Source: Anoxybacillus tengchongensis (lineage in GTDB: Bacteria; Bacillota; Bacilli; Bacillales; Anoxybacillaceae). Taken from it: 49,818 nt of DNA. The position numbers and the translations under genes are program-made. Shown in pieces: positions 132-33,837 of the stretch (position 1 is the stretch's first letter; every line of letters begins with the position of its first letter). The notes under the pieces were generated by a model. That model saw only the letters and a program-made list of their open reading frames with translations, searched no databases and had not been told where the DNA came from. The stretch is from contig NZ_JACHES010000014.1 of NCBI RefSeq assembly GCF_014201585.1, positions 1 to 49,818 of the forward strand. Reading direction: 5' to 3'.

Positions 132-170
132 TCTTTTTTTACCTTCCCGCACCAAATGATCGTTTTTTAA

Positions 171-200
171 GTATATTGTTATATGAAACTGGGAAAACTG
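171..200 (+). promoter_or_regulatory. Candidate sigma-F promoter of csfB
   Basis: GTATA at 171-175, a 15-base spacer, then GGGAAAACTG at 191-200. This fits the sigma-F pattern GywTA-N15-GGnrAnAnTw except for the last base. csfB is a known sigma-F gene in B. subtilis. The transcript would start close to the Shine-Dalgarno site, giving a very short leader. Confidence 0.6.
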
Positions 201-221
201 TTAGCGGGAGGTGGAGAACGG

Positions 222-404
222 ATGTCTTATAGTAAAACTTGTATGATATGTAACGAACAAAATAAAAATGGAATTTATATTTTTCATCATTTCATATGTA
301 TGAATTGTCATAACGATCTCATTCAAACTGAAACAAATGATGAGAAATATAAATTTTACGTTGATCGGTTGAAAAAAATAGGAGAGAATAAAATATATTC
401 ATAA
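222..404 (+). CDS. csfB: CsfB (Gin), anti-sigma factor of sporulation
   Basis: A 60-residue protein with two Cys-x-x-Cys pairs (CMIC near residue 7 and CMNC near residue 27), the zinc-binding layout of Gin/CsfB, and a C-terminal FYVDRLKKI-type segment shared with the B. subtilis protein. In B. subtilis, CsfB binds and inhibits sigma-G (and sigma-E), keeping late forespore genes silent until engulfment. The ATG at 222 is chosen because GGGAGGTGG at 206-214 is well spaced before it; an in-frame ATG at 183 lies upstream of the likely promoter. The position directly behind an rRNA operon matches B. subtilis. xpaC and yaaN, which follow it there, are absent here. Confidence 0.9.
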   Translation: MSYSKTCMICNEQNKNGIYIFHHFICMNCHNDLIQTETNDEKYKFYVDRLKKIGENKIYS

Positions 405-408
405 CTCA

Positions 409-445
409 AGGCCCCTACTATGATTAGGGCCTGTTTTATTTTAAT
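409..445 (+). terminator. Terminator behind csfB
   Basis: AGGCCCCTA (409-417) pairs with TAGGGCCT (425-432), with one bulged C, followed by GTTTTATTTT. Confidence 0.75.
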
Positions 446-485
446 ATAAATGTATAAAACAACATGAGTGAGGAAGCGGATAAAG

Positions 486-1910
486 ATGGATCAGACAAAC
501 ACACCTTTATATACGCTTTTATGCGAACATGCCTCAAAACAACCTATTTCATTTCATGTGCCAGGGCATAAATATGGAGCTGTGTTTTATGAAGAAGCTC
601 TTTTTTCTTTTGCGCCATTGTTGCATTTAGATGTAACTGAGCTTTCACATTTAGATGATTTACATCATCCAACAGGAGCAATTGAACAAGCGCAACAGTT
701 AGCGGCAAATTTGTATGGGGTAAAACGCACATATTTTTTAGTTAACGGTTCTACGGCTGGTAATTTGGCTATGATTGCAGCCGCGTGTGAAAAAAATAAA
801 AAAGTCATTGTACAACGTAATTGTCATAAATCCATTTTGCATGCGCTACATCTTGTTGGGGCAACACCAATTTTTATTTCCCCAGAATTTGATGAAGATG
901 TTCAAGTGATGTCTTTTGTGTCTTTTGAAACAATTTGTAATACGTTGCGCGAGCACCCAGATGCTGCTGCACTCATTTTAACAAATCCAAACTATTACGG
1001 TATGGCTATTGATTTAACAACAATCGTTCAATTAGCACATTCTTATCGAGTACCAGTTTTAGTTGATGAGGCACATGGTGCTCATTTTGTGCTCGGAGAA
1101 CCTTTTCCAAAATCATCTGTTGAGTGTGGAGCCGACATTGTTGTACAATCGGCCCATAAAACACTTCCAGCCATGACGATGGGATCTTTTCTACACTTTA
1201 ATAGCGAACTTATCGATGAACGTATGTTGAGATACTTTTTGCAAGTTTTCCAGACGAGTAGCCCGTCTTATCCAATCATGGCTTCACTCGATTTGGCACG
1301 CGCTTATGTAGCACGACAAACGCGTGAAACGATTGATGAAATAATTGTTCAAATTCAATTGTTTAAACAAGAATTGCGGACAATTGAAGCGATTCATGTT
1401 GTGGAATCAAGACATCCGCTTATTCGAACAGACTTATTAAAGATTACGTTACAAACACGTAGCGCACATTCAGGATATGAGTTACAACAATTATTAGAAA
1501 GAAATGGAATATTTACAGAGATGGCTGATCCGTATAATGTATTGCTTGTCTATCCGCTTGCGAAAATGAAACAACTACCAGCCATCGCAGATCGTATAAA
1601 GCGTGCGTTGCAATCTATTCGTAGCAAGCCGAAAAATGAACGAGTGCAATTCCAGTTACCGAAGCATTGCCATGCGGTAAGTTACGAATGGACGAAAGGT
1701 CGCCAAACAAAAAAAATTTTGCTTCACGATGCAATTGGGTGTGTTTGCGCTCAAATGGTTGTCCCTTATCCACCCGGGATTCCTATTTTACTTATCGGGG
1801 AAATTGTAACAAAGCAGCATATTGAGCTCATTCAGCATTTGAAGAAAACGGATGCCTATTTTCAAACAGATATAGACGGAGATTACATCGAAGTGTTCCA
1901 GGAGGTATGA
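486..1910 (+). CDS. yaaO: PLP-dependent Orn/Lys/Arg decarboxylase family protein (YaaO)
   Basis: A 474-residue fold-type I PLP enzyme of the Orn/Lys/Arg decarboxylase family. Visible marks are FHVPGHKYG near the N-terminus, [16 protein letters not shown] for the PLP-binding aspartate, and SAHKT with the Schiff-base lysine at about residue 225. The C-terminal decarboxylase domain ends with IPYPPG-like PYPPGIPIL. It resembles B. subtilis YaaO, whose substrate is not settled; related enzymes decarboxylate arginine or lysine. ATG 486 is preferred over GTG 468 because AGGAAG at 471-476 sits 9 bases before it. It is followed one base later by tmk, so the two are cotranscribed. Confidence 0.85.
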
Positions 1911-1911
1911 T

Positions 1912-2541
1912 ATGAACTATTTATTTTTTTCATTTGAAGGTCCCGAGGGGGCAGGGAAAACAACGATCGTCCACATGCTAAAGGATTATTTAACGGAACA
2001 ACATGTTGATGTTGTGGCGACACGTGAGCCAGGAGGAATCGATATTGCTGAGCAAATTCGTGCAATCATTTTACATCCTCATAATGAACGAATGGATGCC
2101 CGAACAGAAGCTTTGCTTTATGCTGCAGCGAGACGACAACATTTAGTTGAAAAAGTAATTCCTGCGTTGAAAGAGGGGAAAATAGTTCTTTGTGACCGCT
2201 TTATTGACAGCTCTCTAGCTTATCAAGGTGTAGCGCGTAGTTTAGGGATAGATGAGATATTAGCTATTAATGCGTTTGCCGTTGAGAATTGGATGCCTAC
2301 ATTAACGATTTATTTCGATATTGACCCAGCGCTTGGATTAGCGCGCATTCGCGAAAATGGATTGCGTGAAGTTAATCGACTTGATTTAGAGGAGCTAGCG
2401 TTTCATGAACGAGTACGTGACGGATATATGATGCTAATGGAACGTTTTCCAAACCGTATAAAAAAAGTCGATGCCACCCAATCGGTAACAAAAGTGTTTG
2501 AAGACGTATGGGCACTGATTGAGCCTTTGATTAGAAAGTGA
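1912..2541 (+). CDS. tmk: Thymidylate kinase
   Basis: A 209-residue kinase that phosphorylates dTMP to dTDP for DNA synthesis. The P-loop GPEGAGKTT spans residues 10-18, followed by TREPGG (substrate binding) and [13 protein letters not shown] (DR-x motif). The length is normal for bacterial Tmk. Its start nearly abuts the preceding decarboxylase gene, with GGAGG inside the end of that gene as ribosome site. In B. subtilis two small genes, yaaQ (darA, a cyclic-di-AMP receptor) and yaaR, stand between tmk and holB; here only 10 bases separate them. Confidence 0.97.
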
Positions 2542-2551
2542 GGGGGTTGTT

Positions 2552-3550
2552 ATGTCTTGGAAAACGCTTGAAACAAATCAACCGCATGTAGCAAAAATGA
2601 TCGTTAACAGCATTAGAAAAGAAAGAGTGGCTCACGCCTATTTATTTGAAGGACAAAAAGGGACAGGCAAAAAGGAAGCGGCTCTTTTATTTGCTAAACG
2701 CCTTTTTTGTTTAGCAAATGTATATGATGAGCCTTGTGAAGCATGTGTCAACTGTCGACGCATTCAATCTGGTAATCATCCAGATGTTCATCTTGTTTCC
2801 CCAGATGGAAACTCCATCAAAAAACAACAAATTGAACAGTTACAAGAGGAGTTTACAAAAACGGCTGTTGAATCGAGCCGTAAATTATATATTATTGAAC
2901 ATGCTGATCAAATGACTGTTCAAGCAGCCAATAGTTTATTGAAATTTTTAGAGGAACCGTCAGCGAAAACGGTAGCGATTTTGTTAACAGAGCAGCTTCA
3001 TCGCATACTTCCGACAATTGTTTCACGTTGCCAAGTGATTTCTTTTCATCCATTGCCAACAGAGCGAATATACGCTTATTTACAACAACAAGGTGTAGCG
3101 CGGGGGTTAGCTATATTGGCTGCAAGAGTAACGAACAGTTTGGAAGAAGCACTTCAGCTAAGCCAAGATGATTGGTTTGCACAAGCACGAAAAATAGTGG
3201 TACAATTATATGAAGCATTAAACAAGCAATATGTACAAGCGTTGCTTGTCATTCAGCAACATTGGCTCACTCATTTTACAAATAAAGAGCAAATGAATAT
3301 AGGATTAGACTTATTATTATATTTATATAAAGACTTGTTATATGTATTACTTGGAGAAGAACAACAAATTGCATATGATGATTGCATGACTGAATTTCAG
3401 CAGTCGCGTTTTCTTTATTCTGAAAAGCAAATTGCTCAACATATGAGAGCGATTTTACAGGCAAAAGCGCGGTTGCATACGAATATGAATCCGCAGCTTT
3501 TAATGGAACAGTTAGTATTGCAGTTGCGGGAGGGATCTGCGTTTGTATGA
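2552..3550 (+). CDS. holB: DNA polymerase III delta' subunit
   Basis: A 332-residue clamp-loader subunit that helps load the beta clamp at the replication fork. It has the AAA+ N-terminus with HAYLFEGQKGTGKK (Walker A-like, about residues 28-41), a four-cysteine zinc module (C...CEACVNC), NSLLKFLEEP and the SRC-type IVSRCQ sensor motif. The C-terminal collar domain is less conserved. The gene begins after a strong GAGGGGG site and overlaps ricT by 8 bases, so translation is probably coupled. Confidence 0.95.
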   Translation: MSWKTLETNQPHVAKMIVNSIRKERVAHAYLFEGQKGTGKKEAALLFAKRLFCLANVYDEPCEACVNCRRIQSGNHPDVHLVSPDGNSIKKQQIEQLQEEFTKTAVESSRKLYIIEHADQMTVQAANSLLKFLEEPSAKTVAILLTEQLHRILPTIVSRCQVISFHPLPTERIYAYLQQQGVARGLAILAARVTNSLEEALQLSQDDWFAQARKIVVQLYEALNKQYVQALLVIQQHWLTHFTNKEQMNIGLDLLLYLYKDLLYVLLGEEQQIAYDDCMTEFQQSRFLYSEKQIAQHMRAILQAKARLHTNMNPQLLMEQLVLQLREGSAFV

Positions 3551-4370
3551 AGTTGTAGGCGTTCGTTTTAAAAAAGCAGGAAAGATTTATTATTTCGATC
3601 CGGGAGACTTACCAATTTCAAACGGTGACTATGTTATTGTTGAAACGGTTCGTGGTATTGAATTTGGAAAAGTTGTTGTAGCTAAAAAACAAGTCGATGA
3701 AAAAGATATTGTTTTACCGTTAAAAAAAGTTATTCGCTTGGCCGATCAAAAAGACAAACTTGTTGTAGAAGAAAATAAAAAAGCAGCAGAAGAAGCGTAC
3801 GACATTTGTTTGAAAAAAGTAGAAGAACACGGACTAGAGATGAAGCTCGTCGATGTGGAATATACATTTGATCGTAATAAAATCATTTTTTATTTTACTG
3901 CTGATGGACGAGTTGATTTTCGTGAACTTGTCAAAGATTTGGCAGCTATTTTTCGTACAAGAATTGAGTTAAGACAAATTGGTGTTCGCGATGAAGCGAA
4001 AATGTTAGGTGGTATCGGTCCGTGTGGGCGTATGCTTTGTTGTTCGACGTTTTTAGGCGACTTCGATCCTGTTTCTATAAAAATGGCGAAAGATCAAAAT
4101 TTATCGTTAAATCCGACAAAAATATCAGGATTATGCGGTCGATTAATGTGCTGTTTAAAATATGAAAACGACGAATATGAGACTGCGAAAGAACAGCTAC
4201 CTGATTTAGGAGAAATGATTGAAACTCCCCTTGGATTAGGGAAAGTGGTTGGACTAAATATTTTAGAACGAGTGCTACAAGTTGAGTTAGTTGAAAAAGA
4301 ACGGGTGGTCGAGTATACAATTGACGAATTGATAAAAGAAAAAGTTCTTCCTACTCAAGCCACAGAGTGA
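3543..4370 (+). CDS. ricT: RicT (YaaT), PSP1-domain regulator of RNase Y
   Basis: A 275-residue PSP1-domain protein nearly collinear with B. subtilis YaaT. Cysteine-rich motifs GPCGRMLCCSTFLGDF and GLCGRLMCCLKYE are clearly visible; in B. subtilis the RicA-RicF-RicT complex carries [4Fe-4S] clusters, assists RNase Y-dependent mRNA maturation and promotes Spo0A phosphorylation, competence and biofilm formation. The start is a TTG at 3543 (first residues MYEVVGVRFKKAGK) inside the end of holB, with GGGAGGG at 3528-3534 eight bases upstream. The holB/ricT/yabA order is conserved. Confidence 0.93.
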   Translation: MYEVVGVRFKKAGKIYYFDPGDLPISNGDYVIVETVRGIEFGKVVVAKKQVDEKDIVLPLKKVIRLADQKDKLVVEENKKAAEEAYDICLKKVEEHGLEMKLVDVEYTFDRNKIIFYFTADGRVDFRELVKDLAAIFRTRIELRQIGVRDEAKMLGGIGPCGRMLCCSTFLGDFDPVSIKMAKDQNLSLNPTKISGLCGRLMCCLKYENDEYETAKEQLPDLGEMIETPLGLGKVVGLNILERVLQVELVEKERVVEYTIDELIKEKVLPTQATE

Positions 4371-4385
4371 TGGGGTGGATGGCGC

Positions 4386-4733
4386 GTGAATAAAAAAGAG
4401 ATTTTTCAATCTGTAACAAGTATCGAGGAGCAAATTGCTCATTTGTATAAACAGCTAGGGGAGCTGAAAAGTTATCTTGGAGAGCTAATCGAAGAAAATC
4501 ATCATCTTCAAGTTGAAAATGACCATTTGCGTAGACGTCTCGAACAATTATCTGAGCAAAAAGTGGAACAAGGCAAAAAACAAACGAAGGCAAAATTAGT
4601 TGATATCGGTGAAGGATATGACAACTTAGCTCGTCTGTATCAAGAAGGTTTTCACATTTGTAATGTACATTACGGCAGTTTGCGGACCCATGGAGATTGC
4701 TTGTTTTGTTTGTCATTTTTAAATAAAAAATAG
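4386..4733 (+). CDS. yabA: YabA, negative regulator of replication initiation
   Basis: A 115-residue protein with an N-terminal leucine-rich coiled coil (about residues 1-60, with repeated EE/L heptads) and a C-terminal zinc domain HICNVHYG...CLFC. This is the YabA plan: the coil tetramerises, and the zinc domain contacts DnaA and DnaN to limit initiation at oriC. The start is GTG 4386 with GGGGTGG a few bases upstream. The stop codon lies inside the stem of the following terminator. Confidence 0.95.
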
Positions 4734-4770
4734 CCTTTCTGACGAATGGTCTGGAAGGCTATTTTGTTGT
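4727..4770 (+). terminator. Terminator behind yabA
   Basis: AAAATAGCCTT (4727-4737) pairs with AAGGCTATTTT (4755-4765), loop of 17, then TGTTG. Only about 20 bases separate it from the next gene. Confidence 0.75.
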
Positions 4771-4787
4771 AGAAAGAGGGATGAAAT

Positions 4788-5522
4788 ATGTTGCGTGAAG
4801 ACGAACGGCTTGACTATTTGTTAGCAGAAGATATGAAAATTATTCAAAGCCCATCTGTATTTGCGTTTTCACTTGATGCGGTGTTGTTAGCGAATTTTGT
4901 ATATGTCCCGATTCAAAAAGGTAATTTAGTTGATTTATGCACAGGGAATGGCGTCATCCCGTTGCTATTAAGTAAACGAACAAAAGGAAAAATTATAGGT
5001 GTGGAAATTCAAGAAAAGATTTATGACATGGCGAAACGAAGCGTGCAATACAACGAATTAGAAGAGCAAATTGAAATCATTCACGGAGATATTAAACATA
5101 TGCCGGCTTATGTTGGACATAGTAAATTTGATGTCGTGACGTGTAACCCTCCTTATTTTCCAACGCCAAATGAGGAAGAGATCAATAAAAATGAACATTT
5201 TGCTATTGCACGTCATGAAATTTATTGCACGCTAGAGGATGTTATCCGCGTCAGCAGTCAATTGCTCAAACAAGGTGGGAAAGCTGCTTTTGTCCATCGG
5301 CCGGAGCGGTTGTTAGATATCGTGACATTGATGAGACAATACCGTTTAGAGCCGAAGCGTTTACGTTTTGTTTATCCAAAGGAAGGGAAAGAAGCAAATA
5401 CCATTTTAATTGAAGGAATGAAAGACGGAAATAAAGGATTGAAAATATTACCTCCCCTCATTGTATACGAACAAAACGGGGAGTATACGAGCGAGTTAAA
5501 ACATATTTTATATGGGGAATGA
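4788..5522 (+). CDS. trmN6: tRNA1(Val) A37 N6-methyltransferase-like protein (YabB/TrmN6)
   Basis: A 244-residue SAM-dependent methyltransferase. The SAM site is [14 protein letters not shown], and the catalytic NPPY motif typical of N6-adenine methylation lies at residues 120-123. E. coli TrmN6 methylates A37 of tRNA1(Val), and this is the usual annotation of the B. subtilis YabB family; the substrate here is inferred. Its stop is 6 bases before rsmI. The small GIY-YIG gene yazA, found between yabB and yabC in B. subtilis, is absent. Confidence 0.9.
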
Positions 5523-5528
5523 GACGAT

Positions 5529-6395: not shown

Positions 6396-6430
6396 AAAAG
6401 TTTCTCTAGAAAAATCTAGAGAAACTTTTT
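6395..6430. terminator. Bidirectional terminator between rsmI and abrB
   Basis: A 16-bp perfect stem (6395-6410 with 6415-6430) with an AAAA loop. The A-run on the left and the T-run on the right let it serve rsmI (+) and abrB (-) equally. Confidence 0.9.
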
Positions 6431-6713: not shown

Positions 6714-6776
6714 ATTCTTTCTCCTCTCCTTTTTTCATCTTTTTTCGTCAATATTCGACAAAATCTCTATGGATTT

Positions 6777-6805
6777 ATCATAACAACTTTTCCATTAAGC
6801 GTCAA
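6777..6805 (-). promoter_or_regulatory. Sigma-A promoter of abrB
   Basis: On the minus strand, TTGACG (6805-6800), 17 bases, TATGAT (6782-6777). The start would be near 6770, which puts the tandem Spo0A boxes at 6744-6760 just downstream, the arrangement of the repressed B. subtilis abrB promoter. A second minus-strand TATAAT (6878-6873) lies upstream with a Spo0A box right behind it but no clear -35. Confidence 0.8.
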
Positions 6806-6808
6806 TCC

Positions 6809-7098: not shown

Positions 7099-7105
7099 TT
7101 GGTGA

Positions 7106-9155
<2,050 letters not shown>

Positions 9156-9157: not shown

Positions 9158-9189
9158 AGAGGTGTTGCAAAGACACCTCTTTGTTTCTA
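9156..9189 (+). terminator. Terminator behind metG
   Basis: AAAGAGGTGT (9156-9165) pairs perfectly with 9173-9182, followed by GTTTCT. Confidence 0.8.
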
Positions 9190-9273
9190 TTTTGTAATGC
9201 AATTGTTATATAGCTGTGATTTATGTAACGATATTGTATGGTAAACTGAACATCGGAAGAAAAGAGGGGTCAT

Positions 9274-11441: not shown

Positions 11442-11471
11442 ACAGAGGATTTCACGATCCTCTGTTTTTTT
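11442..11471 (+). terminator. Terminator behind yabE
   Basis: ACAGAGGAT (11442-11450) pairs perfectly with 11457-11465, followed by seven Ts. Confidence 0.9.
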
Positions 11472-11512
11472 CGTTATAATGGGTGAAGAACAACTGAAAG
11501 ATGGAGGATTTT

Positions 11513-13187: not shown

Positions 13188-13217
13188 ACACGTTCTATCC
13201 TTTCGTTGCATATGTTA
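13187..13217 (+). promoter_or_regulatory. Candidate sigma-K promoter of yabG
   Basis: AACA (13187-13190) and CATATGTTA (13209-13217), the latter a perfect CATAnnnTA. The spacing of 18 is one base longer than usual. yabG is a sigma-K gene in B. subtilis. Confidence 0.6.
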
Positions 13218-13237
13218 CAAACAAAACAAACGAAAGG
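13199..13237 (+). repeat. Inverted repeat covering the yabG ribosome site
   Basis: CCTTTCGTT (13199-13207) pairs perfectly with AACGAAAGG (13229-13237). The right arm contains most of the Shine-Dalgarno AAAGGGCGG, and the sigma-K -10 box lies between the arms. Confidence 0.65.
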
Positions 13238-13247: not shown

Positions 13248-14126
13248 ATGATTCAAGTTGGGGACATTGTTGCGCGGAAATCGTATGAATGTGATGTTTT
13301 GTTTCGAGTTATTGATATTAAAGAAAAAGAGGGAGAAAAAGAAGCGATCTTATATGGAGAAGATGTTCGACTCATAGCTGATGCTCCTTTTTCCGATTTA
13401 GTTGTTATTGATGAACGTGAAAAAAAGAGACGGAAAGAAGAAGAAAAACAACATATTGAGCAATGTTACAAATTGTTGCGTCAAGATTATCGTTTGTTAC
13501 GGGAAAAAAGCGAATATGAATCAACAGGTGGATACGAAGTAAAAATGGATTTTTTTCAACTTCCTGGCCGAGTGCTTCATATAGACGGTGATCCGCTTTA
13601 TTTACGAAAATGTATGCAGTTGTATGAGCGAATTGGAGTTCCGGTATATGGTGTCCATTGCCACGAAACAGACATGCCTGATCGCATTATTCCACTACTT
13701 GAACAAGTTCGTCCTGATATTTTAGTTGTAACTGGGCATGATGCGTATTCAAAATCAAAAGGAGCGATCGATGATTTAAAAGCGTATCGTCATTCGAAAT
13801 ATTTCGTACAGACGGTGAAGCAGGCCCGAAAAAAAATCCCGAATCTCGACCAACTTGTGATTTTCGCTGGAGCGTGTCAATCTCATTTTGAATCACTTAT
13901 TCGAGCAGGTGCTAACTTTGCAAGCTCCCCTGCGCGTGTCAATATTCATGCACTTGACCCTGTATATATCGTTTCACGCATTAGCTTCACTCCTTTTATG
14001 GATCGTGTCAACGTATGGGATGTGCTACGAAATACATTAACGGGGGAGAAGGGACTGGGCGGTGTCGAAACGCGAGGCGTCTTGCGAACGGGAATGCCAT
14101 TTCGGACGATAGATGAGCAAACATAA
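13248..14126 (+). CDS. yabG: Sporulation-specific protease YabG
   Basis: A 292-residue member of peptidase family U57. The N-terminus MIQVGDIVARKSYECDVLF and the central GHDAY, FAGACQSH and SSPARVNIHALDP segments match YabG. In B. subtilis it is made in the mother cell under sigma-K and processes spore-coat proteins such as SafA and SpoIVA. ATG 13248 is used; codons upstream run through the GC-rich element and give an unrelated basic extension. Expression is expected to be monocistronic, with terminators on both sides. Confidence 0.93.
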   Translation: MIQVGDIVARKSYECDVLFRVIDIKEKEGEKEAILYGEDVRLIADAPFSDLVVIDEREKKRRKEEEKQHIEQCYKLLRQDYRLLREKSEYESTGGYEVKMDFFQLPGRVLHIDGDPLYLRKCMQLYERIGVPVYGVHCHETDMPDRIIPLLEQVRPDILVVTGHDAYSKSKGAIDDLKAYRHSKYFVQTVKQARKKIPNLDQLVIFAGACQSHFESLIRAGANFASSPARVNIHALDPVYIVSRISFTPFMDRVNVWDVLRNTLTGEKGLGGVETRGVLRTGMPFRTIDEQT

Positions 14127-19751: not shown

Positions 19752-19755
19752 TGAT

Positions 19756-19781
19756 GTTTAGACCTTCCTATTTTAGGGGAA
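19756..19781 (+). promoter_or_regulatory. Candidate sigma-B promoter of ctc
   Basis: GTTTAG (19756-19761), 14 bases, GGGGAA (19776-19781), each one base from the sigma-B consensus GTTTAA/GGGwAw. ctc is the classical sigma-B gene of B. subtilis. The start is expected near 19788. Confidence 0.65.
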
Positions 19782-19809
19782 GCTATGAGCGATTCTAAAA
19801 TAGGAAGGT
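19762..19809 (+). repeat. 15-bp inverted repeat hiding the ctc ribosome site
   Basis: ACCTTCCTATTTTAG (19762-19776) is perfectly repeated in inverse at 19795-19809. The right arm holds the ctc Shine-Dalgarno GGAAGGTG; the left arm lies within the spacer of the sigma-B promoter. No T-run follows, so it is not an ordinary terminator. Confidence 0.85.
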
Positions 19810-19816
19810 GATTTCA

Positions 19817-20434
19817 TTGTTACAACTTCAATTACGTCCAGACCATCGACGTTCTTATGTGAAACAAATGCGGAAGCAAGGTCATATTCCGGCTGTTTTG
19901 TACGGGAAAGCGACGAATAGCCAACCGGTTTTTGTTGATGCGGCTGAGTTTTTGAAGCAGTTTCGGGCTACAGGCGGTACGGGTCTTTTAGACGCAAAAA
20001 TGAATGACAATCACATTCGTATCATCGTTCGTGATATGCAAAAACATCCGATTCGTCAAGATATTATTCATATTGACTTTTTAGCTGTTGATGCCAAAAC
20101 AGAAATAGATGTTCACGTTCCTATTCATCTCATTGGTGAAGCAGCTGGCGTCAAAGATGGGGGCGTATTGCAACAGGCAATGCATCAATTATCCATTCGA
20201 GCCTTACCGTCAAACATCCCGCCATCCATTGATGTAGATATAACGAATTTGCAAGTAGGCGATGTTATTACAGTTTCACATATTCAAACAAACGGTGCTT
20301 ATGAAATCAATCACGATCCGACAGAAGTGATTGCGTCCATCTTGCCACCAAAACAAGAAGAAGAAATTCATAGCGGTGAAGAACAAGAGTCGGGAAGACC
20401 AGAATCGGAAGAGGGACGGGAAACAACGCCGTGA
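19817..20434 (+). CDS. ctc: Ctc, L25/TL5-type ribosomal general stress protein
   Basis: A 205-residue bL25 family protein with the 5S rRNA-binding N-terminal domain ([22 protein letters not shown]) and the C-terminal TL5 beta domain ([21 protein letters not shown]), ending in an acidic tail. In B. subtilis Ctc joins the 50S subunit under stress. The start is TTG 19817, 7 bases behind GGAAGGTG; the protein then begins [10 protein letters not shown]. Dual supply is likely: read-through from prs and a sigma-B promoter. Confidence 0.92.
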
Positions 20435-21055: not shown

Positions 21056-21064
21056 TGAATAATT

Positions 21065-21111
21065 CCCGACTAAATGGTTCAAAATGTATTCGATTAAAAC
21101 AACCATTTGGG
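21065..21111 (+). repeat. Inverted repeat before fin
   Basis: AAATGGTT (21072-21079) pairs with AACCATTT (21101-21108); CCC (21065-21067) can extend it with GGG (21109-21111), the start of the Shine-Dalgarno GGGAGGG, leaving a 4-base bulge. A weak sigma-F-like promoter (GAATA 21057, GTTCAAAATG 21078) overlaps the left arm. Confidence 0.4.
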
Positions 21112-21121
21112 AGGGACAAGT

Positions 21122-21352
21122 ATGGCATTACACTATTATTGCCGTCATTGTGGCGTGAAAATTGGAACCATTGATGCGCTTGAGCTAGAGAGTGAACAAT
21201 TGGGCTTTCATCGACTAACAGAAGAAGAAAGGTTAGATATGATTCAATATCTTCCGACAGGGGAAATTTGTGTAAAGTCGATTTGCGAAGATTGTCAAGA
21301 GGCGTTAGATCGGAATCCCGATCTTCATCAATATGAGAAATTTATTCAATGA
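21122..21352 (+). CDS. fin: Fin (YabK), anti-sigma-F factor
   Basis: A 76-residue protein beginning [15 protein letters not shown] with a second cysteine pair CEDC near residue 60, a zinc-ribbon layout. It matches B. subtilis Fin, which is made under sigma-F and then inhibits sigma-F to allow the switch to sigma-G. ATG 21122 follows GGGAGGG. It lies between pth and mfd as in B. subtilis. Together with csfB, this gives two forespore anti-sigma genes in one window. Confidence 0.93.
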
Positions 21353-21409
21353 TTGGCTTTGGGGGACCCAAAGCGTTTTTGTATTTATGTTTGGGGAGGA
21401 GGGAATTTT

Positions 21410-25011: not shown

Positions 25012-25040
25012 GTATATAACTTCGCTTGTGACGGATACTA
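25012..25040 (+). promoter_or_regulatory. Candidate sigma-G promoter of spoVT
   Basis: GTATA (25012-25016), 17 bases, GATACTA (25034-25040), close to the sigma-G pattern GnATA and CATnnTA (one mismatch). spoVT is a sigma-G gene in B. subtilis. Confidence 0.5.
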
Positions 25041-25108
25041 ATCACAACAATGGTGAATTATTCAACTGCTTCACCAGTGCCATTTTTAATCACTAGATGA
25101 AAGCGAGG
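25020..25108 (+). repeat. Weak inverted repeat over the spoVT ribosome site
   Basis: CTTCGCTT (25020-25027) can pair with AAGCGAGG (25101-25108) with one G-U pair. The right arm is the Shine-Dalgarno region; the left arm is in the spacer of the sigma-G promoter. Short and possibly chance. Confidence 0.3.
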
Positions 25109-25117
25109 CATCGATAG

Positions 25118-25654: not shown

Positions 25655-25679
25655 AGGTAGCATCTCGCTACCTTTTTTT
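25653..25679 (+). terminator. Terminator behind spoVT
   Basis: AAAGGTAGC (25653-25661) pairs perfectly with GCTACCTTT (25667-25675), then Ts. Confidence 0.9.
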
Positions 25680-25717
25680 GATGTATAATTATATGTAATC
25701 GAAAAAAGGTGAAGTAT

Positions 25718-27274: not shown

Positions 27275-27276
27275 TC

Positions 27277-28728: not shown

Positions 28729-28729
28729 T

Positions 28730-28987
28730 ATGCGACTCGATAAGTTTTTGAAAGTTTCTCGGCTCATTAAAAGGAGAACATTAGCAAAAGAAGTCGCTGA
28801 TCAAGGGCGTGTATTTATTAACGGTCAGCAAGCGAAAGCAAGTTCAACAGTAAAAATAGGCGATGAAATTATGATTCAATTTGGCCAAAAACATGTGACA
28901 GTGAAAGTGGTTGAATTGCAAGAACATGCCAAAAAAGAAGATGCGAGTGCGCTATATGAAATTGTAAAAGAAGAGCGAGTACAATAG
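28730..28987 (+). CDS. rqcP: RqcP (YabO), S4-domain ribosome quality control factor
   Basis: An 85-residue S4 RNA-binding protein: MRLDKFLKVSRLIKRRTLA, then GRVFINGQQAKASSTVKIGD. In B. subtilis RqcP works with RqcH on stalled 50S subunits to add C-terminal poly-alanine tails. ATG 28730 comes one base after the yabN stop, with GGGAGGGG as ribosome site. The 66-base gap behind it holds the yabP promoter and hairpin. Confidence 0.95.
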   Translation: MRLDKFLKVSRLIKRRTLAKEVADQGRVFINGQQAKASSTVKIGDEIMIQFGQKHVTVKVVELQEHAKKEDASALYEIVKEERVQ

Positions 28988-29004
28988 CTTGTTCTAAACT
29001 ATTT

Positions 29005-29047
29005 CTCCCCCTCATACACTTGTACAAACGATCGTTGTGAGGGGGAG
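29005..29047 (+). repeat. 10-bp inverted repeat hiding the yabP ribosome site
   Basis: CTCCCCCTCA (29005-29014) is perfectly repeated in inverse as TGAGGGGGAG (29038-29047), which is the yabP Shine-Dalgarno region. The left arm overlaps the sigma-E -10 box. No T-run follows. Confidence 0.85.
29013..29020 (+). promoter_or_regulatory. Sigma-E -10 element of yabP-yabQ
   Basis: CATACACT is a perfect CATACAnT sigma-E -10 box; the -35 (around 28992-28998) is poor. yabP-yabQ are sigma-E genes in B. subtilis. The start is expected near 29027, downstream of the left arm of the hairpin. Confidence 0.6.
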
Positions 29048-29053
29048 ACGTTG

Positions 29054-29347
29054 ATGACTCAAAACATGGGAAGTAAAGGGCCGATTCAAGAACACGACAT
29101 TATCATGCGCAGTCGGCGCACGTTAGAAATTACCGGTGTAAAACAAGTAGAAAGTTTCGATAACGAAGAATTTTTACTAGAAACGGTAATGGGTTTTTTG
29201 TCTGTGAAAGGGCAAAATTTGCAAATGAAAAACTTAGATGTAGACAAAGGAATTGTCTCAATTAAAGGTAAAATTTTTGAAATCATTTATTTAGACGAGC
29301 ATCATACGGAGAAAGCTAAAGGATTCTTTAGCAAGTTGTTTAAATGA
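29054..29347 (+). CDS. yabP: Sporulation protein YabP
   Basis: A 97-residue YabP/YqfC-family protein with RRTLEITGVKQVESFDNEEF and VKGQNLQMKNLDVDKGIVSI, almost invariant in bacilli. It is required for normal spore coat/cortex development in the mother cell; the molecular role is unclear. ATG 29054 is preferred over TTG 29051 because of spacing to GGGGGAG. It overlaps yabQ by 4 bases. Confidence 0.95.
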   Translation: MTQNMGSKGPIQEHDIIMRSRRTLEITGVKQVESFDNEEFLLETVMGFLSVKGQNLQMKNLDVDKGIVSIKGKIFEIIYLDEHHTEKAKGFFSKLFK

Positions 29348-29952
29348 GTTTGCATATGCAGTTTACAACTTTGCTTGCGATGATCGGAACCGGAATGATC
29401 ATTGGGGCATGCTTTGACACATACGCGCACATATTCAATCGTTCCGAGCGTCATCGGTTCATCGTATGGATTGCAGACATTCTTTTTTGGGTCGTGCAAG
29501 CGTTATATGTATTTTACACATTATTAGTCATTAACAATGGGCAAGTTCGCTTGTACATTTTTTTTTCCATATTATGTGGATATGCTACTTATCAAGCTTT
29601 ATTCCAACGTATATACGTTCGTTTGTTGAAAAAAATTATTCACATTTTTGTAACGTTATATCGTCTAATCGTCCGAATGTTTTATTATATCATCATCCTT
29701 CCGCTCCGACTTCTTTACCGTTTTTGTATTTTTTTATTCATCACTACTTGTCATGTTGTTTTGTCAGTTGGTAAAATTTTATATAAAGTAATCTATGGAT
29801 GTATACAATTTTTATTGCGACCATTTATATGGATCGGACGTTTCATTTGGGAAAGAACTCCTTTTCGCTTTCAAGCAGCTGTAGGTCGTTTCTTTCATAT
29901 GGGAAAAGGGTTTTTCTTGAAAGTAGCGAATACATTTAGAAAAAAAGGGTAA
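29344..29952 (+). CDS. yabQ: Spore cortex biosynthesis protein YabQ
   Basis: A 202-residue membrane protein with several hydrophobic segments in the first 150 residues (LLAMIGTGMIIGACFDTY; IADILFWVVQALYVFYTLLV) and a basic C-terminus. It corresponds to YabQ, needed for cortex formation and located in the outer forespore membrane in B. subtilis. Its ATG overlaps the yabP stop, so translation is coupled. Confidence 0.92.
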   Translation: MSLHMQFTTLLAMIGTGMIIGACFDTYAHIFNRSERHRFIVWIADILFWVVQALYVFYTLLVINNGQVRLYIFFSILCGYATYQALFQRIYVRLLKKIIHIFVTLYRLIVRMFYYIIILPLRLLYRFCIFLFITTCHVVLSVGKILYKVIYGCIQFLLRPFIWIGRFIWERTPFRFQAAVGRFFHMGKGFFLKVANTFRKKG

Positions 29953-29975
29953 TGAAAGAAGGAGCGGTGAAAAAT

Positions 29976-30347
29976 ATGGGCGCCCCACAGAGAAGTAAAG
30001 TGAAGAAAATACAAACGTCGTATGTCATTCAACAAGAAAAACAAGAACATAAGAAGGCGCGACGTCGTAAAAAGAAGATGGTGCGTTTTAGTATTGTGGC
30101 AACGGTGGCGTTAGCCGCTTCTTCGCTATTTTTATATACGATGATGGTACAATCTTCTGCAATTGATGAACAACTGAAAACGAAAGAACAGTTAGAAGAA
30201 AAGTTACGCACGCTGCAACAAGATGAAAAAAGATTGAAAGAAGAAGTCGAAAAATTAAATGATGATAAATATATTGCCGAATTGGCTCGAAAACAATATT
30301 TTTTGTCGAAAGAAGGAGAAATCATTTTTATTACTCCTGAGGAGTAA
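29976..30347 (+). CDS. divIC: Cell division protein DivIC
   Basis: A 123-residue bitopic septum protein: a basic cytoplasmic start (KKARRRKKK), one membrane span at about residues 36-58, then a coiled coil (LKTKEQLEEKLRTLQQDEKR) and LARKQYFLSKEGEIIF. DivIC forms a complex with FtsL and DivIB. ATG 29976 is chosen with AAGGAG 11 bases upstream; the ATG at 29952 overlaps the yabQ stop and lacks a spaced ribosome site. It is an essential vegetative gene behind two sporulation genes, as in B. subtilis. Confidence 0.9.
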   Translation: MGAPQRSKVKKIQTSYVIQQEKQEHKKARRRKKKMVRFSIVATVALAASSLFLYTMMVQSSAIDEQLKTKEQLEEKLRTLQQDEKRLKEEVEKLNDDKYIAELARKQYFLSKEGEIIFITPEE

Positions 30348-30368
30348 GTAAGATAGGCAGAAGGCTTA

Positions 30369-30398
30369 TTGACACTTGTTTTTTTCATTATGTATAAT
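30369..30398 (+). promoter_or_regulatory. Sigma-A promoter of yabR
   Basis: Perfect TTGACA (30369-30374), 18 bases, perfect TATAAT (30393-30398). Confidence 0.85.
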
Positions 30399-30441
30399 GA
30401 AAGAAACGATTTTTCAGATTTTAAGGAGGAGCACTTTTTTT

Positions 30442-30834
30442 ATGTCAATTGAAGTAGGCAGCAAGTTACAGGGAAAAGTAACGGGCATTACAAAATTTGG
30501 AGCGTTTGTTGAGTTACCAGAAGGCGCGACAGGCTTAGTACACATTAGTGAAGTAGCCGACAGCTACGTAAAAGACATCAATGAACATCTTAAAGTAGGC
30601 GATGTTGTCGAAGTTCGTGTCATTAATGTTGAGAAGGATGGAAAAATTGGCTTATCGATCAAAAAGGCAAAGGAACAAGCTTCACGTCCGCGCAATAAAG
30701 GAAACGATCGCGCTTCAAAAGAAAGCTTTGAGCAGAAAATTAGCCGTTTCTTAAAAGAAAGTGAAGATCGTTTAGCATCCCTTAAACGCCATACCGAATC
30801 AAAACGAGGAGGACGTGGTGCTCGACGTGGTTAA
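30442..30834 (+). CDS. yabR: YabR, S1-domain RNA-binding protein
   Basis: A 130-residue protein with one S1/OB domain in residues 1-75 (GSKLQGKVTGITKFGAFVEL, GLVHISEVA, GKIGLSIKKA) and a basic, Arg/Gly-rich tail (RGGRGARRG). It belongs to the YabR/general stress protein 13 group, probably ribosome- or RNA-associated; function not settled. ATG 30442 follows TAAGGAGGA. It has its own strong promoter and terminator. Confidence 0.92.
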   Translation: MSIEVGSKLQGKVTGITKFGAFVELPEGATGLVHISEVADSYVKDINEHLKVGDVVEVRVINVEKDGKIGLSIKKAKEQASRPRNKGNDRASKESFEQKISRFLKESEDRLASLKRHTESKRGGRGARRG

Positions 30835-30868
30835 CTTGCTGCCGAATGGGACATGAGGCAGTTTATAC

Positions 30869-30899
30869 AAGCATCCATTTCGTCAGTGGATGCTTTTTC
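30869..30899 (+). terminator. Terminator behind yabR
   Basis: AAGCATCCA (30869-30877) pairs perfectly with TGGATGCTT (30887-30895), then TTTC. Confidence 0.85.
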
Positions 30900-30922
30900 G
30901 TTTGCTTTTTATGAAAAAACTA

Positions 30923-30951
30923 TTGACTTTATCGAAGGAACATAGTAACAT
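30923..30951 (+). promoter_or_regulatory. Promoter of the tRNA pair
   Basis: TTGACT (30923-30928), 17 bases, TAACAT (30946-30951), 17 bases before the first tRNA. Confidence 0.6.
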
Positions 30952-30968
30952 TACAAGTGTCGTTGCGT

Positions 30969-31045
30969 GGCGGCGTAGCTCAGCTGGCTAGAGCGTACGG
31001 TTCATACCCGTAAGGTCGGGGGTTCGATTCCCTCCGCCGCTACCA
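30969..31045 (+). tRNA. tRNA-Met (anticodon CAT)
   Basis: A 77-base cloverleaf with acceptor GGCGGCG, D arm GCTC...GAGC, anticodon loop TTCATAC, T loop TTCGATT and encoded CCA. The G1-U72 pair also occurs in the B. subtilis elongator tRNA-Met at this locus. Confidence 0.95.
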
Positions 31046-31057
31046 AATTGCATAAGC

Positions 31058-31129
31058 GGCCCGTTGGTCAAGTGGTTAAGACACCGCCCTTTCACGGCGG
31101 TAACACGGGTTCGAATCCCGTACGGGTCA
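31058..31129 (+). tRNA. tRNA-Glu (anticodon TTC)
   Basis: A 72-base cloverleaf from GGCCCGT to ACGGGTCA with anticodon loop CTTTCAC and T loop TTCGAAT. The gene ends at the discriminator A and is followed by TAAAAG, so the 3' CCA is not encoded and must be added by the CCA-adding enzyme. Confidence 0.95.
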
Positions 31130-31130
31130 T

Positions 31131-31167
31131 AAAAGCACCAATTTCGTCATGAAATTGGTGCTTTTTG
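31131..31167 (+). terminator. Terminator behind the tRNA pair
   Basis: A perfect 15-bp stem (31131-31145 with 31151-31165), a 5-base loop, then Ts. Confidence 0.9.
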
Positions 31168-31195
31168 TTTATATAAGCCATTTTTTGTGATATCC

Positions 31196-31261
31196 CGTCG
31201 AAAAATTTATATGATTCATCTTCTTTTTTTGACAAAATTTTGATAATTCAGTCTGTATAAT
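31196..31261 (+). promoter_or_regulatory. Spo0A-activated promoter of spoIIE
   Basis: TTGACA (31229-31234) and TATAAT (31256-31261) are separated by 21 bases, the unusually long spacing typical of Spo0A-activated sigma-A promoters such as B. subtilis spoIIE and spoIIG. Spo0A-like boxes with one mismatch lie at 31196-31202 (CGTCGAA) and 31228-31234 (TTTGACA). Confidence 0.8.
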
Positions 31262-31304
31262 ATCAAGTAATAAACAGATATATGGAAAAGGGGAGAGGAT
31301 GAAC

Positions 31305-33770
31305 ATGGAGAGATTAGAGCGGAAGTTAGTCAATCAAATGGCGGAAGTACCTTTAAGTGGAACGAGAACAACGTTGTCGCAATGGTTTCAACGGTTTACA
31401 GTTCGTTTAAGTCATTTATTATTTCAACAAGGCTTTTTATTTCTAGTTATCGGTTTTTTACTTGGACGAGCTCTCATTTTAACAAAGATGACACCGTTTG
31501 CTTTGCCTTTTTTTGCAGCAGTTTATTTACTTCGACGCGATAAGTTGGGATTTGTGTTTATCGCTTTATTTGCAGGATCGTTGACCGTTTCTTTTTACAC
31601 TTCTTTATTTATCGTTGCTTCAATCGTGATGTTTCTTATCTTTTATCGGCTGTTTTTCTGGATTGATGCTCTGCCGAAAAGATTGCCTGTTGTCGTATTT
31701 TTTTCCTCCATTTTCGCGAAGATGGGTATGATTTACGTCTGGGATCATGAATGGACGCTATACGAAGGAATGACGATGTTTATTGAAGCGGGTCTTGCCT
31801 CTATTTTAACGCTCATTTTTTTGCAATGTGTCCCGTTGTTTGATCATCAAAAGTATAAACAAACGTTAAAACCAGAAGAAGTTATTTCTTTTGTCATCCT
31901 CATTTCTTCGATGTTGACCGGAATGGTTGGTTGGTCGGTTTATGGCCTTTCGTTAGAACATGTTGCGTCGCGCTATTTATTGTTGTTATTTGCTTTTGTC
32001 GCTGGTGCGACCGTTGGCTCAACTGTTGGTGTCGTTACAGGCCTCATTTTAAGTTTAGCGAATGTATCGAATTTGTACCAAATGAGCTTGCTTGCGTTTG
32101 CTGGGTTGCTCGGTGGCCTTTTGAAAGAAGGGAGAAAGTTAGGTGTTTCGTTTGGCCTCATCGTTGCAACATTGTTAATCACTCTCTATAGTCAAGGAAT
32201 AGCGGACATTGTCCCGAATATCGTAGAGTCTCTATTTGCTGTTTTGCTGTTTCTTATGACTCCACAATCTTTAACGAGCAAGATGGCGAAATATGTGCCA
32301 GGAACGGTTGAACATACGAATGAGCAACAACAATATGTACGGAAAATTCGCGATGTTACCGCTCAGCGAGTCGAGCAATTTTCTCACGTGTTTCAAGCGC
32401 TATCAAAAAGTTTTTCTTCATATGGGGTACTTACTCATGAAGAGGAAGAAGAGCGCGAAATTGACTATTTCTTAAGCGATGTTGCTGCTAAAACATGTCA
32501 AACATGTTTTAAGAAAGATCAATGTTGGCTCAACCACTTTGATAAAACATATGATTACATGAAGAAAATTATGCAAGAGACGAGTGAAAACGATCAAATG
32601 ACGAACGCAAAGTTGCTTCGCGAATGGAATAAACATTGTGTGAAAGCAAATAAAGTTGTTCAGATCATTGAGAAAGACGTGTCATTTTATAAAGCAAATA
32701 AAAAATTAAAGCAACAAATGAAAGAAAGTAGAAGGCTTGTGGCCGAACAGTTATTAGGTGTGTCGCAAGTGATGGAAGATTTCGCAAAAGAAATTCAAAA
32801 AGAGCGTGAAAATTATTATGTGCAAGAAGAACAGATTTTGCATGCCCTTCAACAGTTCGGTGTTGATGTGAACGATGTAGAAATTTATAGTTTGGACAAA
32901 GGAAGTGTTGACATTGAGATGGTCATCCCATATTGCGATGGAAGGGGAGAATGCGAAAAGCTTATCGCACCGATGCTATCTGACATTTTAGGTGAGACGA
33001 TCATTGTAAAAAAAGAAGATTGTTCTGTCTATCCAAATGGGGATTGTCGTGTTGCGTTTAGTTCTTCGAAAGCGTTTGTCATTGATACAGGTGTTGCATA
33101 TGTTGCAAAGGGCGGAGGGTTCATCTCGGGTGACAGTTATGCGATGATGGAAATTGGCGGTGGAAAATATGCGTTAGCTATTAGTGATGGGATGGGAAAT
33201 GGGGAACGGGCACACCATGAGAGTAAAGAAACGCTCAAACTATTACAAAAAATTTTACAATCAGGGATTGAAGAACGAATTGCAATTAAATCTATCAACT
33301 CCATTTTAGCTTTGCGAACGACAGAAGAAATTTTTTCAACGCTAGATTTAGCGATTGTTGATTTGCAAAATGCGACAACAAAATTTTTAAAAGTTGGTTC
33401 ATCGCCAAGCTTTATTAAACGAGGAAGCAACGTCATGAAAATCGAGTCGAGCAATTTGCCGATAGGAATTATTACTGGGGTAGAGTTTGAGATGATTGAG
33501 GAACAATTAAAAGCGGGCGATTTGCTCATTATGATGAGCGATGGTATTTTTGACGGTGTTTCCCACATTGAGAACCATGATGTATGGATGAAACGAAAAA
33601 TTAAAGAATTAAAGACAAATGATCCGCAAGAAGTATCTGAATTGCTTTTAGAAGAAGTGATCCGTGTTAATGGTGGGGAAATTGAAGATGATATGACGAT
33701 CGTTGTTGCACGTATTAAACATAACACACCGAAATGGGCAGTCATTCCAGCATATCAATATATGAAATAA
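31305..33770 (+). CDS. spoIIE: Stage II sporulation protein E, PP2C-type phosphatase
   Basis: An 821-residue protein. About ten membrane segments fill residues 30-330, a regulatory FtsZ-interacting region follows, and a PPM phosphatase domain starts near residue 590. Metal-binding aspartates are D610 (GGGFISGDSY) and D628 (AISDGMGNG), with MMSDGIFDG and DDMTIVVA near the end. It dephosphorylates SpoIIAA to switch on sigma-F in the forespore and helps asymmetric septation. ATG 31305 is preferred over ATG 31299, which touches GGGGAGAGG. Confidence 0.97.
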   Translation: MERLERKLVNQMAEVPLSGTRTTLSQWFQRFTVRLSHLLFQQGFLFLVIGFLLGRALILTKMTPFALPFFAAVYLLRRDKLGFVFIALFAGSLTVSFYTSLFIVASIVMFLIFYRLFFWIDALPKRLPVVVFFSSIFAKMGMIYVWDHEWTLYEGMTMFIEAGLASILTLIFLQCVPLFDHQKYKQTLKPEEVISFVILISSMLTGMVGWSVYGLSLEHVASRYLLLLFAFVAGATVGSTVGVVTGLILSLANVSNLYQMSLLAFAGLLGGLLKEGRKLGVSFGLIVATLLITLYSQGIADIVPNIVESLFAVLLFLMTPQSLTSKMAKYVPGTVEHTNEQQQYVRKIRDVTAQRVEQFSHVFQALSKSFSSYGVLTHEEEEEREIDYFLSDVAAKTCQTCFKKDQCWLNHFDKTYDYMKKIMQETSENDQMTNAKLLREWNKHCVKANKVVQIIEKDVSFYKANKKLKQQMKESRRLVAEQLLGVSQVMEDFAKEIQKERENYYVQEEQILHALQQFGVDVNDVEIYSLDKGSVDIEMVIPYCDGRGECEKLIAPMLSDILGETIIVKKEDCSVYPNGDCRVAFSSSKAFVIDTGVAYVAKGGGFISGDSYAMMEIGGGKYALAISDGMGNGERAHHESKETLKLLQKILQSGIEERIAIKSINSILALRTTEEIFSTLDLAIVDLQNATTKFLKVGSSPSFIKRGSNVMKIESSNLPIGIITGVEFEMIEEQLKAGDLLIMMSDGIFDGVSHIENHDVWMKRKIKELKTNDPQEVSELLLEEVIRVNGGEIEDDMTIVVARIKHNTPKWAVIPAYQYMK

Positions 33771-33780
33771 AAGGTATAAA

Positions 33781-33831
33781 ATCCCCTCTGAGCGTCGATG
33801 ATGGAAGTATACTACTTTTTTCGGAGGGGAT
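33781..33831 (+). repeat. Inverted repeat hiding the yabS ribosome site
   Basis: ATCCCCTC (33781-33788) pairs perfectly with GAGGGGAT (33824-33831), extendable to 10 bp with one wobble. The right arm is the yabS Shine-Dalgarno. A TATACT (33808-33813) lies between the arms, but no full promoter is clear. Confidence 0.65.
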
Positions 33832-33837
33832 AAACAT

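Follow-up and report, generated by a model that had tools for sequence, protein, structure and literature searches.

Promoter spacers complementary to the Shine-Dalgarno sequence as putative translational insulators between tandem genes of Anoxybacillus tengchongensis

In Bacillus subtilis, sigG (spoIIIG) is preceded by a hairpin of 20 bp or more that is thought to block translation of the read-through RNA from PspoIIG and that cannot form in the RNA started at PsigG, as set out in PMC5942855, which cites Masuda 1988 and Sun 1991 for the hairpin. A comparable device is described in PMC3014915 for gene e of phage T4 (and for soc, 49 and I-TevI): the long transcripts made early fold across the initiation region and about 100-fold less lysozyme is made, transcripts from the late promoter do not carry the 5' part of the stem, and in T4-related phages the 5' strand of the stem is encoded where the late promoters lie. 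Here we report inverted repeats of this kind upstream of four genes, ctc, fin, yabP and yabS, in a stretch of 49,818 nucleotides (nt) from Anoxybacillus tengchongensis (assembly GCF_014201585.1, contig NZ_JACHES010000014.1, positions 1 to 49,818; hereafter the window), which is part of a 2.73 Mb genome. In each case the left arm lies in the spacer between the -35 and -10 elements of a putative promoter and the right arm holds the Shine-Dalgarno (SD) sequence, and we consider it probable that the promoter spacers of these four genes serve as translational insulators by pairing with the SD.

The four genes resemble sigG in the geometry of the arms and in having the left arm in the promoter spacer, where that of sigG lies as judged by eye, and they resemble T4 gene e in that the RNA from the own promoter would lack the 5' part of the stem while the promoter lies in the stretch that encodes it. 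They differ from gene e, which involves phage late promoters and few genes, in that cellular sigma factors would be used. In contrast to the present case, sigG is a single gene, and the accessible text of PMC5942855 does not frame its hairpin as a general design. An earlier note on this DNA, made from the sequence alone, did not know of it as a general rule in spore formers. We likewise found no publication that states a general spore-former design or a spacer rule, although this negative is weak, as subscription papers were mostly not covered; the principle itself has been published for sigG (PMC5942855) and is known from T4 gene e, while its breadth and the spacer rule were not found in print.

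Arms, promoter motifs and Shine-Dalgarno sequences in four gaps

The window carries a Bacillaceae region that starts at the end of a 5S rRNA gene and runs in the order csfB, yabG, spoVG, prs, ctc, pth, fin, mfd, spoVT, rqcP, yabP, spoIIE, yabS. Family models identify csfB (Gin), YabG, Ctc/L25, Fin, YabP, SpoVT, Prs, Pth and SpoIIE; for YabS they give a VWA protein only, and we take the name yabS from the position of the gene, just as the remaining gene names of the window are those that we presume from gene order. The rqcP product (85 aa) matched no NCBIfam model at 1e-15. The four genes and their upstream elements are as follows.

19756-19761, + strand: ctc promoter -35, sigma-B type, GTTTAG, read from the sequence
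19762-19776, + strand: ctc left arm ACCTTCCTATTTTAG, the entire 14-nt promoter spacer and the first -10 base
19776-19781, + strand: ctc promoter -10, GGGGAA, read from the sequence
19795-19809, + strand: ctc right arm CTAAAATAGGAAGGT, with the SD inside
19817-20434, + strand: ctc (L25/general stress protein Ctc), TTG start, family model
21057-21061, + strand: fin promoter -35, sigma-F type, GAATA, read from the sequence
21065-21079, + strand: fin left arm CCCGACTAAATGGTT, most of the spacer and the start of the -10
21077-21086, + strand: fin promoter -10, GTTCAAAATG, read from the sequence
21101-21115, + strand: fin right arm AACCATTTGGGAGGG, with the SD inside
21122-21352, + strand: fin (anti-sigma-F factor), family model
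28991-28998, + strand: yabP promoter -35, GTTCTAAA, read from the sequence
29004-29014, + strand: yabP left arm TCTCCCCCTCA, in the spacer and two bases into the -10
29013-29021, + strand: yabP promoter -10, sigma-E type, CATACACTT, read from the sequence
29038-29048, + strand: yabP right arm TGAGGGGGAGA, the SD
29054-29347, + strand: yabP (sporulation protein YabP), family model
33774-33778, + strand: yabS promoter -35, sigma-F type, GTATA, invariant in a 22-sequence family alignment
33781-33790, + strand: yabS left arm ATCCCCTCTG, within the 15-nt spacer
33794-33803, + strand: yabS promoter -10, GTCGATGATG, from the family alignment
33822-33831, + strand: yabS right arm CGGAGGGGAT, the SD
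33838-34581, + strand: yabS (VWA-domain protein), family model

The arms of ctc form a perfect helix of 15 bp (19762-19776 with 19795-19809), those of fin 13 pairs flanking a two-by-two internal loop (21065-21079 with 21101-21115), those of yabP 11 bp (29004-29014 with 29038-29048) and those of yabS 10 pairs, one of them G-U (33781-33790 with 33822-33831). The ctc promoter was read against what we take to be the sigma-B motif, and the yabS promoter, for which the earlier note had named no sigma factor, is by its letters of the sigma-F type when set against what we take to be the sigma-F consensus; the fin promoter reads GTATA/GTTCATACTA in relatives. According to PMC9847131, the ctc promoter of B. 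subtilis is strictly a sigma-B promoter, and its motif belongs to category I of the SigB motifs, with a 14-nt (N14) spacer. The gaps measure 65 nt for ctc (19752-19816), 66 nt for fin (21056-21121), 66 nt for yabP (28988-29053) and 67 nt for yabS (33771-33837), and are thus nearly equal in length despite different genes and sigma factors. Within these four gaps there is no + strand terminator-like site and no T-run past the right arm, and the stem of each left arm starts 9-16 nt past the stop codon of the gene before it (prs, pth, rqcP or spoIIE).

We propose, for tandem genes without a terminator between them, an arrangement in which the 5' half of the inverted repeat would contain the gene's own promoter, with the -35/-10 spacer complementary to the SD. 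Polymerase arriving from the upstream gene would copy the spacer, the RNA would fold with its SD closed, and leaky transcription would give little protein; polymerase with the proper sigma factor would start between the arms and make an mRNA that lacks the left arm and could be translated. The start sites, the presence of read-through RNA and the block to translation are what we infer in this scheme. Since the left arms lie 9-16 nt past the upstream stop, a terminating ribosome should not hold them open for long. A riboswitch or RNA thermometer was also considered and rejected, as it would need both arms in the mRNA from the own promoter, and the left arm lies in the promoter motif from which the starts are derived.

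Conservation, co-evolution and predicted folding of the arms

For 43 genes of the window, the SD region was paired with the remainder of the 130 nt upstream, and the best duplex was scored against 300 dinucleotide shuffles of that upstream sequence. The arms of ctc, yabS, yabP and fin each gave p = 0.003, that of yabG 0.007 and that of csfB 0.017, whereas the arm of spoVT was at chance (p = 0.21), and spoVG, as the earlier note had said, was without one (p = 0.50). Other genes below p = 0.05 were tatD and spoVB (0.003 each), rnmV (0.007), cysK (0.017), metS (0.020), ridA (0.040) and divIC (0.047). Five arms (ctc, yabS, yabP, fin and yabG) stand out, and csfB is borderline, no better than cysK or metS. 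It could be argued that the hairpin serves the upstream mRNA, as 3'-end protection or a processing site, and hides the SD incidentally, for there is a stable predicted stem 9-16 nt past the stops of prs, pth, rqcP and spoIIE. Chance overlap with the SD in four genes is unlikely, though the score itself demands overlap, and we regard this explanation as quite improbable.

Conservation was followed for 35 genes in up to 110 genomes (30 fetched relatives and 80 named loci), giving 2080 cases. Rows whose tblastn match started past residue 25 or spanned less than half of the query were dropped, cases with Ns or with fewer than 150 upstream bases were left out, one locus was kept per genome, and the picking of start codons favours strong SDs; L001 and G040, whose upstream regions are identical in ctc, fin, yabP and yabS, are both counted. 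Among relatives, p<=0.05 was reached by ctc in 49/83, yabS in 38/66, fin in 50/98 and yabP in 51/100. Pooled, the four genes reached it in 188/347 cases, compared with 77/1260 for 23 further genes from these regions, which are mostly housekeeping genes with yabQ and veg among them; the earlier note had named equal frequency before ordinary genes as a ground for rejecting the idea, and this did not occur. A further pool of sporulation-related genes from the region (spoVG, spoVB, spoIIE, yabE and yabT) reached 44/309. In the named loci alone the counts were 20/54 for ctc, 18/36 for yabS, 28/69 for fin and 22/70 for yabP, with positives in Bacillus, Metabacillus, Neobacillus, Oceanobacillus, Halobacillus, Paenibacillus and others. 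The positives of yabP fade with distance (20/32 in L001-L034 versus 2/38 in L035-L080), and yabS passes in 4/4 loci that we take to belong to the B. subtilis and pumilus groups.

If the spacer is selected to pair with the SD, the two should change together. Spacers were defined by the promoter motif alone, the motifs having been drawn after the alignments had been inspected, and each spacer was paired with its own SD and with the SD of the same gene from other species, after rows with identical spacer and SD had been dropped. Own pairs were strongly preferred, with z of -10.8 for yabP (86 distinct rows), -10.3 for fin (43), -7.9 for ctc (35) and -9.0 for yabS (36), p = 0.0002 each, and the preference holds at the same p in the named loci alone. 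This is the covariation of arms that the earlier note had wished to see. With the SDs of nine other genes from the same genomes, the same spacers gave z of -3.1 to +3.9, and the own SD paired with the 27 nt that precede the -35 gave z of -0.7 to -1.7. Among 136 significant, motif-bearing cases, the left arm overlaps the spacer by at least 5 nt in 130, and in 135 the motif-derived start lies downstream of the end of the arm, so that the arm's predicted place upstream of the gene's own start was borne out as far as motif-derived starts can tell. In an alignment of the window with 20/29 family ctc orthologues (A3), the ctc helix is paired in 91.1% of cells, compared with 40-60% when it is slid, and contains 8 double-change cells, a number reached in 0/500 shuffles; in two further alignments (A2 and A4), which were inspected by eye only, the register slips. 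A dyad of this kind might also be a DNA operator through which a regulator acts on the promoter, as the left arm is inside the promoter and the arms are palindromic. However, the letters of the arms differ between genera while complementarity is kept, and the loop ranges from about 20 to 80 nt, unlike the operator of a single protein, which makes an operator very hard to credit.

Both RNA forms were folded as well, with transcription starts placed from the motifs (that of csfB was set at the arm itself). In the window, the predicted cost of opening the SD in the read-through and own-promoter RNA, respectively, was 19.4 and 5.2 kcal/mol for ctc, 14.9 and 5.4 for fin, 21.6 and 4.8 for yabP, 15.5 and 4.2 for yabS, 17.1 and 3.1 for yabG, 17.6 and 0.8 for csfB, and 6.6 and 5.9 for spoVT. 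The mean unpaired probability of the SD rose from the read-through to the own-promoter RNA for fin (0.25 to 0.50), yabP (0.08 to 0.48), yabS (0.01 to 0.60), yabG (0.11 to 0.42), csfB (0.00 to 0.85) and spoVT (0.23 to 0.58). Among relatives, the median extra cost in the read-through RNA was 9.3 kcal/mol for yabP (n=87), 7.4 for fin (43), 8.4 for ctc (47) and 8.5 for yabS (40), in line with the earlier note's expectation that the read-through RNA would fold over its SD. The extra cost exceeded 4 kcal/mol in 181/217 cases of the four genes versus 19/420 controls (the first 60 orthologues of each of seven genes, cut at -32), whose median differences were -0.4 to 1.9 kcal/mol. By predicted opening energy, the SD is closed in the longer and open in the shorter RNA for ctc, fin, yabP and yabS, and not for spoVT.

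Terminator-like sites and the other genes of the region

The earlier note had claimed an SD-complementary arm for seven genes, adding csfB, yabG and spoVT to the four treated so far. The elements of these three genes are as follows.

13199-13207, + strand: yabG left arm CCTTTCGTT, adjoining a sigma-K type -10 CATATGTTA (13209-13217) on its upstream side
13229-13237, + strand: yabG right arm AACGAAAGG, with the SD inside
13248-14126, + strand: yabG (sporulation peptidase), family model
143-150, + strand: csfB left arm CTTCCCGC, not conserved and directly past the 5S rRNA gene with its terminator-like end
204-211, + strand: csfB right arm GCGGGAGG (SD)
25019-25027, + strand: spoVT putative left arm, at chance level (p = 0.21)
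25099-25107, + strand: spoVT SD region

The arms of yabG form 9 bp (13199-13207 with 13229-13237) and reach p<=0.05 in 8/28 relatives, strongly within the window's genus, and the sequences suggest that the design holds for yabG in that genus only. Neither csfB (6/26 relatives at p<=0.05) nor spoVT (23/110) is supported. The claim thus stands for ctc, fin, yabP and yabS, stands for yabG within the genus and falls for csfB and spoVT; the fear that the 8-bp cases were due to chance was well placed, as these two fail conservation. Among relatives, csfB (42%) and yabG (43%), two of the weak cases, are preceded by a terminator-like site. In the window spoVT lies 195 nt behind mfd, and no terminator-like site was found within 130 nt upstream of it in any of 110 genomes. 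A weak further case may be spoIIE, whose upstream region (31214-31304) gave p = 0.09 in the window, p<=0.05 in 13/57 relatives and a swap z of -4.8. A terminator-like stem was also seen at the fin-mfd boundary (window 21356-21374), and mfd may be separated from fin by termination.

The repeats could also be terminators or attenuators of the upstream genes that overlap the SD by chance. This is so for tatD (9171-9272), rnmV (11455-11511) and spoVB (25668-25712), where the SD pairs with an intrinsic terminator of the gene before it, namely with the terminator's U-tract and 3' arm, and where the arm was significant in only 5/27, 7/28 and 11/98 relatives, respectively. Terminator-like sites also hold the left arm in 5/19 tandem hits (z<-3) of the congener screen described below, and the stem of the YhcN/YlaJ-like gene ends in GGGGGTTTT. 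In the window's gaps before ctc, fin, yabP and yabS, on the other hand, an intrinsic terminator with GC stem, short loop and T-tract was looked for and rejected, there being neither a T-run nor a + strand terminator-like site, and the loops range from about 20 to 80 nt. Moreover, the arm of yabP and a terminator-like site tend to exclude each other, the arm being found in 3/18 cases with such a site versus 48/82 without (p = 0.0015, relatedness uncorrected). We consider terminators with a chance overlap an improbable explanation for the four genes, and the exclusion seen at yabP fits a spacer guard that would replace the terminator.

Extent of the arrangement among tandem genes

Further genes with such arms were found in the family. 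The sigG hairpin, taken as a positive control, gave p<=0.013 in 30/30 family genomes, which were cut from 41 with a match and include the window's genome, and its left arm lies, by eye, in the spacer between what we take to be the promoter elements. Four hits of the screen described below were followed in orthologues. A gene for a YhcN/YlaJ-like lipoprotein has the arm in 27/30 of them, with long and changing stems. In its upstream 100 nt (L337-L366), stems of up to about 19 bp were seen with the promoter in the loop, often with a second small hairpin, and the right arm, which ends in GGGGGTTTT, might also terminate. An MntP/YtaF-like gene has the arm in 17/30, with a TTCTAAA-spacer-CATATG pattern; a PEGA-domain set has it in 13/29, the start picker having misplaced several starts outside the genus; and YtkD, with a sigma-A-like promoter, has it in 8/9 within the genus and 3/21 elsewhere.

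An unbiased screen covered 60 evenly spaced 20-kb stretches of a congener, G002 (43% of its genome), in which 1204 genes were predicted and 1159 scored, two repeated transposase-like families being left out of the counts. The gene finder agreed with the hand-set genes of the window in 31/43 starts and 42/43 stops, and because it misses some starts, some true cases will have been missed. Tandem genes behind gaps of 40-150 nt scored z<-4 in 14/302 and z<-3 in 19/302 (shuffled 0 and 2), compared with 1/405 and 2/405 for tandem genes with gaps below 40 nt (shuffled 0 and 3) and 1/150 and 2/150 for gaps of at least 150 nt (shuffled 0 and 1). Divergent genes scored z<-4 in 3/271 (shuffled 1), fewer than the tandem 14/302 (p = 0.014), and of the 40 top hits 11 were divergent and 21 were tandem genes behind gaps of 40-150 nt. 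A terminator-like site lay in the gap of 4/19 hits at z<-3 (p = 0.053) and 2/15 at z<-4 (p = 0.016), versus 105/232 others, which is only suggestive of a hairpin in place of a terminator genome-wide. Strong SD-complementary arms were also noted in the divergent genes L203:764, L189:12408, L179:14469 and L158:8709.

Enrichment of spore genes among the hits was weak. Spore-named NCBIfam matches were found for 6 of the 30 proteins scanned from the 40 top hits at looser limits, 1 of them above cut-off, and at 1e-20 for 4/30 top hits versus 0 of the 20 controls scanned (40 drawn); SpoVS was among the hits by Pfam. In L159:8341 and L178:7194 the arm lies, by eye, in the spacer of a sigma-A-like promoter (TTGAAA/TATAAT or TTGACT/TACACT). 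One hit, L172:8844 (HTH), was taken for a spore gene from a sigma-F-like motif and then rejected, since it matches 37/41 genomes, in many of them as multiple copies, and is transposase-like; L183:12141, also among the 14 strongest tandem hits, looks so by eye. SD-closing arms were seen in several transposase or transposase-like genes of G002 (L213:7446, L172:5027, L214:7631, L162:6631, L163:15384, L172:8844 and L177:9216), assigned by a family model for L177:9216 (Mutator), by copy number for L172:8844 and by repetition in the sample for the others, and such arms are what would be expected of guards against outside transcription. In IS10 and IS50, transcripts from outside sequester the SD of the transposase, while the element's own transcript does not. 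The high rank of transposase-like genes in the screen is in line with this, although IS10 and IS50 are mobile elements whose arms come from terminal repeats. The presence of sigma-A-like promoters and transposase-like genes among the hits of an unbiased screen means that the design is not confined to sporulation, contrary to the suggestion of the earlier note that it belonged to sporulation and stress sigma factors; it seems to follow the tandem arrangement of genes rather than the sporulation programme.

Several results weigh against the insulator proposed here. Conservation is patchy, with 159/347 cases of the four genes above p = 0.05 and with csfB and spoVT failing it, and the promoter motif is present in only 88/101 cases for yabP (TTCTA..CATA), 44/99 for fin, 48/84 for ctc and 41/67 for yabS, the window included. 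In the four B. subtilis and pumilus loci, the arm of yabP lies in the spacer in 4/4 but at p of 0.14-0.17, that of ctc in 3/4 at p of 0.11-0.44, and that of fin is absent (p of 0.46-0.93). Pairs with double changes in the A3 alignment number 3, not above shuffles (97/500), RNAalifold on the YhcN/YlaJ alignment (22/30 sequences) returned just 5 pairs, and for the ctc SD the two RNAs do not differ in mean unpaired probability (0.22 and 0.23), although they do in opening energy. A terminator-like site is near spoVG in 7% and near spoIIE in 0% of relatives, yet these genes have little or no arm. Divergent genes at z<-3 numbered 10/271 versus 2 shuffled (p = 0.04), an excess that a guard against read-through does not predict. 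Finally, a wider left window raises the background of the swap test (spoIIE -4.8, spoVB -4.0, ksgA -3.8, divIC -3.0); the background in spoIIE, spoVB and ksgA indicates that shared descent or composition adds signal, and for this reason the narrow-window test is the one to trust. The last two points would suit a by-product, in which a purine-rich SD and a pyrimidine-rich spacer pair through composition or shared descent without selection: z reaches -4.8 in genes without the design, and there is a small excess in divergent genes. Nevertheless, the spacers favour the SD of their own gene (z -9.0 to -11.0) and not those of nine other genes, dinucleotide shuffles are beaten and the pairing reaches beyond the SD, and we judge a by-product to be unlikely, if somewhat less so than the other alternatives.

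A translational insulator in the promoter spacer thus remains our preferred reading for ctc, fin, yabP and yabS. Whether it extends to a general rule of compact Firmicute genomes is a more tentative matter, which we see as near balance and lean slightly against: the spacer would be selected as an anti-SD wherever a gene with its own promoter follows a terminator-less gene. Dozens of genes per genome (about 4-6% of the tandem genes separated by 40-150 nt) would then be insulated in this way instead of by a terminator, and their promoters would include sigma-A, -B, -E, -F and -G types. Sporulation regulons are generally viewed as sets of transcription switches, and the -35/-10 spacer usually passes for nearly neutral sequence. 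Our findings suggest a little-noticed way of keeping neighbouring genes separate. If the general rule is right, RNA counts would over-call late genes in growing cells, where the RNA would be present and the protein absent, the spacer sequence would bear a second constraint or code, and a post-transcriptional step would keep proteins such as the anti-sigma factor Fin from being made early. The same element would then provide engineered operons with a compact means of insulating their genes.

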